NCBI GenBank assembly: GCA_000806155.1
Contig: JWKX01000002.1
Span: forward strand, 1 to 43,385
Length of the DNA: 43,385 nt
Reading direction: 5' to 3'
Source: an archaeon GW2011_AR18
Lineage (GTDB): Archaea; Nanobdellota; Nanobdellia; SCGC-AAA011-G17; GW2011-AR18
Shown here one piece after another: positions 1-35,603 of this stretch (the first letter of the stretch is position 1; every line of letters begins with the position of its first letter). A model generated the notes under the pieces. It was given only the letters and a program-made list of their open reading frames with translations, did no database searches and was not told the origin of the DNA. A program made the position numbers and the translations under genes.

Positions 1-573
1 CATCTTTCCAAAATCATCACAGTATCTTCTCACGTATGTTCCTGCCTGGCAGCCAATAATAAATAAAACATCTTGTTTTCTAATCTCTAAAATTTCCATA
101 TAATAAACTTCACGTTCTCTAAATTCACGCTTAACAGCGGATTTCAAAGGAGGTAATTGAGTAATTTTTCCAATTAATTTATTAGCAGATTCTCGAATTT
201 CAGATTCAGAAACAGGAGAGTGAATATGCATCAAACAAATATATTCTTTACCAGCCTTCAATAAAGCATCCATAATTTTCGTGGCTTTGCCTATTGATAT
301 TGGAAGAACTCCAGTAACTCCGGGATTTCACTAACCTAATTAGATTTCAAGTGTCCCGCCATGACCTACTTTATCTGATTCCAATATTTTTTTAGCGTAA
401 TCTGCTACTTGATGTGAAGTTGGACCATCTGATTTATTCAAAGATATTACTCCACTATTAAGTAATTCTTGTGCTGTTCTGTCTTCTGGCTTTTTTCCAT
501 ACTTTTCATCTGTAACAGATTGTTTTTTCACTAAAATTTCTCTGTTCTTAGTTTCCCAAGGAAGTTTATTCAT
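1..573 (-). CDS. cbf5: Archaeal tRNA/rRNA pseudouridine synthase Cbf5 (TruB family, H/ACA RNP), 3' end outside window; interrupted by a 21-nt putative BHB intron
   Basis: Exon 1 (573..348) MNKLPWETKNREILVKK...GPTSHQVADYAKKILESDKVGHGGTL; exon 2 (326..1) continues as DPGVTGVLPISIGKATKIMDALLKAG...IIGCQAGTYVRRYCDDFGKM. Motifs match Cbf5 (GPTSH, GHGGTLDPxV, AGTYVR). Confidence 0.95.
327..347 (-). other. Putative 21-nt archaeal protein-gene intron (BHB-type) in cbf5, phase 1 within the catalytic Asp codon (G^AT)
   Basis: Minus-strand CGGGA-CACT-TGA-AATC-TAATTA-GGTT-AGTG-AAA-TCCCG: outer helix CGGGA:TCCCG, 4-bp central helix CACT:AGTG, 3-nt bulges TGA and AAA, inner helix AATC:GGTT (one G.U). Cutting after nt 2 of each bulge removes 21 nt and restores CTT GAT CCC (LDP). 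Confidence 0.88.
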
Positions 574-618: not shown

Positions 619-1257
619 TTATAGTTCAATTTCTTTAGGTTCTATTTTAACATTATTTGCTCCAGCCTCAGCTTCTACACCAATTCTAATAAAGGTTTCA
701 TAATCTAAAGCTTTTTTTATTGATATTGCTAAAACATCTGCAAACATTGGATCATATTTTAAAACACCATCTTTTTCTCTCTCAAATCTTTTAATACCCC
801 TATTTAGTTCTTTATACAATCTTAAACGAGGTTCAAAATTTGTTCCTGAAAGTACAGGTCCTGAATATCTTTTTTCTAATAATCTGCCAGAAGATTCAGC
901 AACTATTATTGATTGTCTAAAATTTTTATTATTTCTAACTCTCCTAATTAATTCTCCTTGTTGAACATCATCAAAATCACGAGTAGAAAATTCTTCTTCC
1001 ATATCTAAAACCATAATATCATTATATTTATTATCAATGTTATTACCTTTTAATATAGCCCAATATTTTGCAAAATTAAAAATATGTACTCTATGATATT
1101 GCATGTAGGCTTCTTTTAATCTTTTATCACTTTCATCAATAATTAACGTCTTTATAGGATTATCGAAAGTAATTATCCTATGATCATTTTCATTACAAAG
1201 TATTACTAAAGTTTCATCAATAATCTTTTCTATAGAAAAAGGTTTTTTATTAAACAT
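619..1257 (-). CDS. Hypothetical protein, 212 aa
   Basis: Long ORF with archaeal TATA-like promoter (TTTATAAG) upstream; no family recognised. Confidence 0.7.
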   Translation of the reverse strand: MFNKKPFSIEKIIDETLVILCNENDHRIITFDNPIKTLIIDESDKRLKEAYMQYHRVHIFNFAKYWAILKGNNIDNKYNDIMVLDMEEEFSTRDFDDVQQGELIRRVRNNKNFRQSIIVAESSGRLLEKRYSGPVLSGTNFEPRLRLYKELNRGIKRFEREKDGVLKYDPMFADVLAISIKKALDYETFIRIGVEAEAGANNVKIEPKEIEL

Positions 1258-1269
1258 AAAAACTAAGAC

Positions 1270-1292
1270 ATTAAAAGAACTTATAAATGTTA
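1270..1292 (-). promoter_or_regulatory. TATA promoter of the 619-1257 ORF (copy 2 of the exact 23-nt repeat)
   Basis: TAACATTTATAAGTTCTTTTAAT on minus strand, identical to 586-608. Confidence 0.6.
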
Positions 1293-32705: not shown

Positions 32706-35603
32706 ATGGTAAAAGAGATATTATTAACTGTGCTTGTATTACTGGGATTACTATCATCTTTTTTACTAATAAATGAATTCACACACAAGGAAATATTCCA
32801 GGTGCCTACAGGGAATTTAGTAAAACAATCTTTAACAAACATATTACAACAACCTTCAACAAATACAAAATCTTTAACAAACATATTACAACAACCTTCA
32901 ACAAATAAATTACAATCATTGAGAGAGGTCAAGAGAGACCAGACATTTACTATAGACATAGAGACTTTCAGACCTATATCATATTTTACAGTACAATATC
33001 CATTAAAAGTCAAAGATATACAAAATAATAAAATATTATTACAACAAGAAGATAATAATTATGAAGTCACTCTTAACAAGGATACTATTATCTATTTCAA
33101 AAACCCTGAAGGTCTGATAATTGGTGGCATCACAACCAGATTATTGAAGGTAGACCAGACAGGAATTGCTACATTGAGCATAAATAAAATTGATCTGAAT
33201 ACCAGACAAAAAAATACTACAACAATGCAGAATACTACAACTAATACTAATTGTGGAAATGATTATATAACCTCTAAATATGGTTTTTCTAAGTGCGAGA
33301 ATGGAAATATTATTGTCTTAAATAAGTATATCACATTAAACTGGAAAAATCCAATACCAAGCAATAACAAACATTATGTTTTAGTCTTTAGGGATATAAC
33401 ACCGCATCCAAAACCATTAACAGGAGATCCAGCATATGTAGGAATAAGACTATATTCTACAAAAGAAGGAAAAAGTGTTTCAACATTCCAGAGACCAGAA
33501 TGGGAAATGCCATTAACTCCAGGACAGACATACTATAAAATACCTGAATCTAAATTCAAACCTGCAAAAAATGAACTAGAATGGAAATCTTCACTTTGCT
33601 TCTCATCAAACTGGCTATCTGACGATCATAAATATGAATGGTGGATTGAGGAAAGGAGTGCTCCTGTAGCTATAGTACAAAATGGATGCTATAAAACTGA
33701 CCATCAATTAGGACAAGGTACAATATTCCTGCAAAGAGAAGAGTTTACAGTTGATCTATATGGACATGGACTTTACACTTATTTTGAATCAAGTTGTGCG
33801 CGTCCTGACCTAGCATCCAAAACCCATTTCAGCTCTCAACCTAAATACATTTTAGAAAGGAATATTCCATTTAGATTCCAAAGGTCAGATCTAATTTATA
33901 GAATGAACCCTAAATATTATTCTGGGTTTTATACGCGTCCATCTATACATACCTCTCTTAGATACTATGATAATACACAATTTTATCCATCTGAATTAAT
34001 TATGCCTACCATCCCAATGATTGGTGCTGCTGTGCCTGGAGTTGCTACTCAGATGTTAGGCTGGGACTTTTTTTCCCAAGAATCAACTGTAGATTACTTA
34101 AGAGCTCCTATTGCCTTAACGCCTAAACCGAATGTCAAGATAGAGAATTTTATAGATAAAGTCTGCGAAGATCAAACCCATACAGGCGTTAAAAAAAGTA
34201 GTAAATATTCTATAGCCCAAAACAAAGTATTCCCATATCTAACTTTTGGCTCTGCCATGAAAACTTTTTCCTTTGAAAATGGAAATAAGTTATTTGCCGA
34301 TACTATATTCAAAGGTATGTCTGCTGAACAAGTCCAACAAAGTGTTCAAGTTCTAAATTCCAATGATTATTGTACATTTGGAAGGCGTGAAGTAGATCTG
34401 GATAATCCTAAAGCACGTAAATATTTCTTAAGCCTAATAACAAAATACTATGGTTTTTCACAAACATTTAAAGACCAAATCCCTGCAGAAGCAAAAAAGA
34501 TAATTGATGATTCTTTTAATTATAAAAGTCCAAATGTTCCTGATATGGATAAAAAATATTATATGGGCTTGTTTTTTGATAATATTAATGCACGTTTTTA
34601 TCACCGTATATTCTTGAAAACACCAACTAATCCCACACAATTATTTACTAATGTCGAAAGATGCAAAAAAGTCCGTCCTCTTGCAATAAACAAACTACTT
34701 GGAGAACAAAGCCCTCAACCTAATAAACTTCTTCCTGGTGAATATTGGATGTGTTATCTTAATGGATCGGGACCTGATGGTTATGTTGAATTACTTCATG
34801 ATGCAAAGACATTATTAGGGGATAGGCAGATTATTATTAATCTTCAATATGGTGATGATTATCCTATAGAAACAAATGCTCCAATACTAGATAAGTACCT
34901 TAATTATGCTGATGGACTTATGATTGAAACTTTTATAGGCAATCCATCTCGTGACTTTGCTTCAGACAACTTACATGAAAAAAATAAAATTGATATTCTA
35001 GATTATACAGCAAATGTAAAAAAGAAAAAGATTGTGGTTGGTATGCAAGTTGCCCAAAAAAGTGGCAAACCTGATATTTTATTAACTACTTATTCAGCAT
35101 TTTTACTTGCAGCAAATGAGGGATCTCTTCTGCAACCAATACCTGATGCAACTGAATCTTCAAGAAGATATATTTATCCTGCATGGTCATATATTCAAGA
35201 AACAGCTACTGGGAAACCAATAGAAAGATATAAACATAATAATTATGGAAATAACTGCATGTATGCTACACGTGAGTATGAACACGCATTTGTAATAGTA
35301 AACTTTGGAACAAATACCCGTCCTAGACCTGCAATTGATAATGATTGTATTCTTGAAATTGACAATCCGCATATTAGCTATATTGATGCTAGAACAGGTC
35401 AGCCTACAAATTCAAAAATAAGACTTAACCCAACAGAAGGAACAATTTTGTTTAAACCTGAAGTAATCAGACCAGTATTAGAAACTTTAGGTCCTGGAAA
35501 AAATCTATCTACAAGGAATTATGACTGCACTGGAACAATATATGAAGAAATACTGGTTCCAGAGGTTCCACTAAATGCAAGAGGCGAGATAATATCACCT
35601 TAA
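32706..35603 (+). CDS. Large anchored protein with C-terminal TIM-barrel putative glycoside hydrolase (GHL15-like?)
   Basis: YYMGLFFDNINARFYHRIF, ADGLMIETFIGNPSRD, KKKIVVGMQVAQKSG resemble a glycoside-hydrolase-like barrel; family tentative. Confidence 0.6.
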   Translation: MVKEILLTVLVLLGLLSSFLLINEFTHKEIFQVPTGNLVKQSLTNILQQPSTNTKSLTNILQQPSTNKLQSLREVKRDQTFTIDIETFRPISYFTVQYPLKVKDIQNNKILLQQEDNNYEVTLNKDTIIYFKNPEGLIIGGITTRLLKVDQTGIATLSINKIDLNTRQKNTTTMQNTTTNTNCGNDYITSKYGFSKCENGNIIVLNKYITLNWKNPIPSNNKHYVLVFRDITPHPKPLTGDPAYVGIRLYSTKEGKSVSTFQRPEWEMPLTPGQTYYKIPESKFKPAKNELEWKSSLCFSSNWLSDDHKYEWWIEERSAPVAIVQNGCYKTDHQLGQGTIFLQREEFTVDLYGHGLYTYFESSCARPDLASKTHFSSQPKYILERNIPFRFQRSDLIYRMNPKYYSGFYTRPSIHTSLRYYDNTQFYPSELIMPTIPMIGAAVPGVATQMLGWDFFSQESTVDYLRAPIALTPKPNVKIENFIDKVCEDQTHTGVKKSSKYSIAQNKVFPYLTFGSAMKTFSFENGNKLFADTIFKGMSAEQVQQSVQVLNSNDYCTFGRREVDLDNPKARKYFLSLITKYYGFSQTFKDQIPAEAKKIIDDSFNYKSPNVPDMDKKYYMGLFFDNINARFYHRIFLKTPTNPTQLFTNVERCKKVRPLAINKLLGEQSPQPNKLLPGEYWMCYLNGSGPDGYVELLHDAKTLLGDRQIIINLQYGDDYPIETNAPILDKYLNYADGLMIETFIGNPSRDFASDNLHEKNKIDILDYTANVKKKKIVVGMQVAQKSGKPDILLTTYSAFLLAANEGSLLQPIPDATESSRRYIYPAWSYIQETATGKPIERYKHNNYGNNCMYATREYEHAFVIVNFGTNTRPRPAIDNDCILEIDNPHISYIDARTGQPTNSKIRLNPTEGTILFKPEVIRPVLETLGPGKNLSTRNYDCTGTIYEEILVPEVPLNARGEIISP
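32829..32912 (+). repeat. Tandem duplication, 2 x 42 nt (14 aa SLTNILQQPSTNxx)
   Basis: tctttaacaaacatattacaacaaccttcaacaaata repeated with 42-nt period. Confidence 0.9.

Follow-up and report, generated by a model that had tools for sequence, protein, structure and literature searches.

The stretch of DNA analyzed here (the window) comprises contig C2 in full (43,385 bp) and comes from an 822-kb, 17-contig, 90% complete assembly (G000). The cbf5 gene lies on the minus strand at the beginning of the window and stops at base 1, which is the contig end; positions 573 to 1 of that strand code for Cbf5 residues 1 to 184, and the 3′ part of the gene is outside the contig. By inspection, this strand runs GGCGGGACACTTG/aaatctaattaggttagtgaa/ATCCCGGAG (slashes mark junctions), the middle segment being a 21-nt insert (347 to 327). 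When the gene is read unspliced, TAA, TAG, and TGA all occur in frame within seven codons, as the preliminary description of this DNA had stated. Excision of exactly 21 nt joins CTTG/ATCCC (L-D-P), corresponding to cuts after nucleotide 2 of both bulges of the structure described below, and the translation without 347 to 327 (...KVGHGGTLDPGVTGVLP...) regains the GHGGTLDP catalytic motif. The spliced protein is Cbf5, with matches in NCBIfam (NF003280, E = 9e-70; TIGR00425, 5e-64), Pfam (TruB_N and DKCLD), and PDB (2ey4 Cbf5, E = 5e-52, with GHGGTLDP aligned), so the restoration of the motif proposed earlier is borne out. A second intact cbf5 had been named as something that would speak against that proposal; no other copy was found in this genome.

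Table 1. Positions of cbf5 and of the predicted bulge-helix-bulge (BHB) elements in the window
Feature	Positions	Strand	Remarks	Basis
cbf5 exon 1	348..573	-	ATG at 573; 3′ end CTTG supplies letter 1 of the Asp76 codon	sequence and homology
Putative BHB intron AAATCTAATTAGGTTAGTGAA, 21 nt	327..347	-	in-frame TAA, TAG, TGA	fold; homologues in G032 and G035
cbf5 exon 2	1..326	-	starts with AT of the Asp codon; truncated by contig end	
Outer helix, 5′ strand CGGGA (codons G-G-T)	354..358	-	pairs with 321-325	MFE fold
Outer helix, 3′ strand TCCCG (Asp-Pro codons)	321..325	-		fold and comparative pairing
Central 4-bp helix, exon side CACT	350..353	-		fold, geometry, covariation
Central 4-bp helix, intron side AGTG	329..332	-		fold, geometry, covariation
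5′ bulge TGA	347..349	-	predicted cut past second nucleotide, TG/A	fold, geometry
3′ bulge AAA	326..328	-	predicted cut past second nucleotide, AA/A	fold, geometry
Inner stem, 5′ strand AATCT	342..346	-		fold, geometry
Inner stem, 3′ strand AGGTT	333..337	-	loop AATT 338-341	fold, geometry

Elsewhere in the window, a promoter-like stretch (AACATTTATAAGTTCTTTTAAT) is present in nearly the same form at 585-607 and 1262-1284 (minus strand), just upstream of cbf5 and of a 212-amino-acid open reading frame (ORF), respectively, which suggests that each may have its own TATA box. This ORF (619-1257, minus strand) lies between an S19e/PDCD5-like/L31e ribosomal cluster and cbf5 and has no Pfam or NCBIfam match. 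A 965-amino-acid putative surface protein (32706-35603), also without a Pfam match, is among several large secreted or LamG/PEGA-like proteins.

The RNA from 316 to 363 was predicted to fold, in both its minimum-free-energy (MFE) and centroid structures, into the BHB that had been claimed for this site (-11.9 kcal/mol), with a 5-bp outer helix, a 3-nt bulge, a 4-bp helix, a second 3-nt bulge, and a 5-bp inner stem. The coordinates, bulges, and cut sites given in the preliminary description match the MFE structure, and its 21-nt intron at 327-347, splitting the catalytic Asp codon, stands with exact boundaries on which sequence and fold agree. The geometry is that of a substrate of the tRNA splicing endonuclease EndA: a 4-bp helix separates two 3-nt bulges that lie on opposite strands, and further helices flank them. 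The fold energy on its own is weak evidence (z = -1.6; 13 of 200 shuffled sequences folded equally well). It is comparison across genomes, not fold energy, that raises the predicted BHB above chance.

By Cbf5, the closest named relatives of this genome are Candidatus Woesearchaeota of the kingdom Nanobdellati (DPANN), in agreement with the earlier impression of a DPANN-like host; members of the same family-level group are among those relatives, L117 being the contig of G031. We surveyed Cbf5 for inserts in 103 genomes of the order and in 378 genomes sampled across the class. At least 35 Cbf5 genes among the 378 genomes, this one included, carry an insert at the catalytic Asp codon (the D site), always at the same nucleotide; this count is a lower bound because the 378 genomes are a sample of the class and the search pattern required GGGAC. 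The inserts are 12, 13, 15, 16, 20, 21, 22, or 29 nt long and span several orders, and public contigs of independent origin contain them too (L118, L126, L138, L164, and L165, the last being JACPMR010000002.1, with an additional insert of 16 nt). The comparison of related alleles proposed earlier thus revealed both intron-bearing genes, in 34 other genomes, and clean empty sites. Each of the 27 introns with a length divisible by three contains an in-frame stop codon, and the other 8 shift the frame; therefore, none of these 35 cbf5 genes can function unspliced. Their frames are otherwise intact and encode 320 to 340 amino acids.

The 12-nt inserts were found in 19 genomes of genus g83. They have an invariant in-frame TGA and mostly the form aaNNNTGAAGaa (L186 to L205; 19 species), and their T may lengthen the central helix to 5 bp; eight g83 species lack the insert. 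Introns of 12 to 15 nt have a small inner stem or none. Several other candidates were discarded: the split cbf5 genes of G355 and G334 reflect a run of N and a division between two contigs, respectively; the overlapping frames with a small shift in G008 most likely reflect an indel error; the pattern matches in G124 and G211 are not introns; and an apparent 250-nt insert in G075 is an artefact of pattern matching.

In every insert, the central helix joins the four exon bases just ahead of the 5′ bulge to the four intron bases just ahead of the 3′ bulge. The Thr-Leu codons that provide the exon side differ by lineage (ACACTT, ACTCTA, ACGTTA, ACCTTA, ACATTA, and ACTTTA, giving CACT, CTCT, CGTT, CCTT, CATT, and CTTT), and the intron end varies in step, being complementary each time; within g83, for example, CTTT:GAAG is replaced in G223 by the compensatory CCTT:GAGG. 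Among 14 lineage representatives, 56 of 56 central-helix pairs are complementary (shuffled mean, 45.4; none of 100,000 shuffles as high), and the covariation score is 0.388 compared to 0.198 (0 of 500), with 99.5% paired by a formal count; since lineage representatives are not fully independent, these values are indications and not exact probabilities. Sliding the helix by 1 to 3 columns lowers pairing to 41 to 64%. The outer helix is 98.9% paired across 23 distinct sequences. The central helix was missing from the short-fragment MFE structure in 3 of the 35 cases (G009, G212, and G234). Codon choice also follows the intron: the Gly codon is GGG in 34 of 35 intron-bearing genes and in 5 of 92 intron-less genes (p = 2e-24), and the Asp codon is GAT in 35 of 35 and 60 of 92, respectively.

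These observations bear on two explanations that do not involve splicing. Three in-frame stops in a gene at a contig end could, formally, mark a pseudogene or an assembly or sequencing error. We regard this as next to negligible in probability: at least 35 genomes, drawn from several orders, have an insert at the same site, as do public contigs of independent origin, the boundaries are exact and the flanking bases covary, the frames are otherwise intact at 320 to 340 amino acids, and Cbf5 is a single-copy protein; at the level of the family, this explanation is already refuted. It is also highly improbable that ribosomes read around the insert by programmed bypassing, frameshifting, or stop codon recoding. 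An RNA hairpin could in principle affect ribosomes, and crenarchaeal cbf5 introns were once mistaken for translational frameshifting (PMC2738675), but such a mechanism would have to accommodate inserts of 12 to 29 nt in all three phases and rejoin the same nucleotide within a codon each time, at the positions where EndA would cut; moreover, extra residues would replace the catalytic Asp.

We put at about 0.94 the probability that the cbf5 insert is a true BHB intron of the archaeal type, present in the pre-mRNA for this H/ACA-guided rRNA/tRNA pseudouridine synthase. In the pathway that the sequences suggest, the exons encoding the G-T-L-D-P motif would form the outer helix GGGA:TCCC, and CACT of exon 1 would pair with AGTG at the 3′ end of the intron to give the 4-bp central helix between two 3-nt bulges. 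EndA would cut after the second nucleotide of each bulge and RtcB would ligate the exons, creating GAT (Asp) and an intact Cbf5 frame; translation of mRNA left unspliced would end at a stop inside the intron.

RtcB is encoded in the same genome (E = 4e-167). An EndA gene, which the preliminary description had proposed to look for, was not found in this 90% complete assembly, whereas 96 of the 103 order genomes carry one, among them all nine of the other family members. Several tRNA genes of this genome contain introns with BHB-compatible structure; such tRNAs require EndA, so that the gene is most plausibly missing only because the assembly is incomplete. The EndA proteins of the relatives retain the Tyr, His, and Lys of the catalytic triad; their best PDB match is Nanoarchaeum equitans EndA alpha (3iey_A), followed by the Methanocaldococcus jannaschii enzyme (M. 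jannaschii, 1a79), and they lack the crenarchaeal insertion loop, with a 9-residue gap opposite 3p1z. As a rule, the order genomes have one PF01974 gene each, and a divergent beta subunit may exist. The crenarchaeal loop is linked to broad specificity, and we know of no EndA without it that accepts a relaxed BHB with little inner stem. Some tRNA genes of this genome (L055 and L050) have introns apparently at noncanonical positions, e.g., in the T arm, which suggests a permissive EndA, although the enzyme of the relatives is without the crenarchaeal loop.

The distribution of the introns suggests that they come and go. On a Cbf5 tree of 127 sequences, at least 13 intron gains or losses are needed, 9 of them forced by supported branches (shuffled labels, 30.8); this is a quick tree, and the counts are approximate. 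In genus g3, G032 has an intron, and G030 and G031 have a clean empty site at 88% nucleotide identity. The intron described here is identical to that of G032 at 17 of 21 positions and to that of G035 at 16 of 21, and the three introns are recognizably homologous (16 to 19 of 21 identical); given the empty sites in G030 and G031, precise intron loss has therefore probably happened. The ends of the intron carry a 7-nt direct repeat (TGAAATC), which was considered as a loss mechanism and rejected because recombination between copies spaced 19 nt apart would not cleanly remove a 21-nt intron. In G053, cbf5 contains, besides the D-site intron, a second predicted BHB intron of 22 nt (L107:1000-1021) at GPT^SH; its minimum-energy fold is an exact BHB, and the sister genome G054 lacks it, which makes it probable that introns are also gained at new sites. 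At the D site, introns would be acquired and cleanly removed on a short evolutionary timescale.

One could instead suppose a single ancient intron, common by descent to these archaea and Crenarchaeota and lost many times, without repeated gain. The site and phase are identical in Desulfurococcales/Sulfolobales, and the homologous introns of G000, G032, and G035 imply loss in G030 and/or G031. We consider this account possible and yet somewhat doubtful, given the number of changes on the Cbf5 tree, including those forced by supported branches, the lack of evident sequence common to introns of different families beyond the helix, and the second-site intron of G053, which argues that gain occurs.

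Repeated gain at one nucleotide may have its reason in the exons. At a canonical BHB, the exons on both sides of the junction always fold into a hairpin whose loop has 7 nt, and the intron lies between loop positions 6 and 7, like a tRNA intron at anticodon arm position 37/38. The G-T-L-D-P codons can spell GGGAC-NYTNG/ATCCC, a sequence that comes close to the anticodon arm of the tRNA-Gln or tRNA-His of these genomes. We hypothesize that these near-invariant codons fold as an anticodon-arm look-alike, with a GGGA/TCCC stem, a 7-nt loop, and the intron at the equivalent of 37/38. If so, the motif would be a ready splicing substrate, and the sharing of the site between Crenarchaeota and DPANN would be explained.

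The likeness extends to sequence: tRNA-Gln(CUG) reads GGGACTCTGG/17 nt/ATCCC in this genome and GGGACTCTGG/14 nt/ATCCC in G032, and cbf5 of G036, G058, G131, and L165 has nearly the same flanks (GGGACTCTAG/../ATCCC). This could mean that the introns were acquired from tRNA genes by reverse splicing or gene conversion. Such an origin seems unlikely to us: among the few that were comparable, no cbf5 intron shared more than short AT-rich words with a tRNA intron of the same genome, and the anticodon-arm likeness is partly built in because any canonical BHB yields a 7-nt junction loop. With odds that we judge to be about even, the anticodon-arm-like motif makes one nucleotide in the catalytic codon of a universal, essential gene a recurrent and reversible intron site across deeply separated archaeal lineages, at which the 12-nt DPANN introns, cut by an EndA without the crenarchaeal loop, would be the smallest known in archaeal protein-coding genes.

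The occurrence of such introns at an identical nucleotide across dozens of DPANN genomes makes of what had been an oddity of Crenarchaeota a natural experiment, run many times over, on how a coding gene gains and loses introns, for which closely related plus and minus alleles are available. It challenges the supposed tie of mRNA introns to crenarchaeal-type EndA and offers a concrete sequence reason for the intron site. In practical terms, gene finders may break or truncate the essential cbf5 gene in these genomes.

Pre-mRNA introns in crenarchaeal cbf5 were reportedly described by Watanabe in 2002 and Yoshinari in 2006, and they are treated by Yokobori in 2009 (PMC2738675). The kind of intron, the gene, the codon, and the phase are thus already known from Crenarchaeota, as is the 21-nt size. 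Crenarchaeal cbf5 introns, which the preliminary description had rightly mentioned, are 16 to 44 nt long, exactly 21 in Desulfurococcus amylolyticus, and interrupt the catalytic Asp codon after its first letter (PMC2738675). Two of its suggestions consequently fall: 21 nt is not minimal, as crenarchaeal introns start at 16 nt and those of DPANN relatives reach down to 12, and a split catalytic codon is not new in itself, the same codon being split in the same phase in Crenarchaeota (PMC2738675). According to a 2020 paper, crenarchaeal cbf5 holds the only other reported archaeal mRNA BHB intron besides that paper's own 5′ untranslated region (UTR) case (PMC7714728). We found no report of cbf5 introns in DPANN in the open-access literature (most subscription journals being outside that scope). 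What appears to be new is the occurrence in DPANN, the lengths of 12 to 13 nt, the second cbf5 site, a canonical helix together with an EndA lacking the crenarchaeal loop, at least 13 gain or loss changes at one nucleotide, and the apparent ability of the G-T-L-D-P codons themselves to form an anticodon-arm-like hairpin.

The introns described here resemble those of crenarchaeal cbf5 in gene, Asp codon, phase, BHB or BHB-like structure, similar size, and patchy distribution with losses, a likeness assessed at the level of site, phase, size, and structure; their host belongs to a different kingdom-level lineage (DPANN). Most crenarchaeal cbf5 introns have an unconventional BHB, attributed to a heterotetrameric EndA, whereas the DPANN introns without exception have a complementary 4-bp helix, their bulges are compatible with 3 nt, and the EndA of the relatives is without the crenarchaeal loop; some of the DPANN introns, at 12 to 13 nt, fall below the published 16, and one genome has the second site (GPT^SH). 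Archaeal tRNA introns at 37/38 share the BHB geometry, and the exon flanks of tRNA-Gln(CUG)/His nearly equal those of cbf5, but the cbf5 intron sits in the coding sequence of an mRNA. The HVO_1309 intron of Haloferax volcanii, processed by EndA, is likewise a BHB in an mRNA; it lies in the 5′ UTR, in contrast with the cbf5 intron, which lies inside a codon (PMC7714728). Putative 12-bp introns of an archaeal virus (Peng et al.), as summarized in PMC2738675, match the g83 introns in length. In that summary, splicing of the viral introns was not shown and they keep the frame, whereas every 12-nt g83 intron brings in an in-frame TGA and interrupts the catalytic codon.
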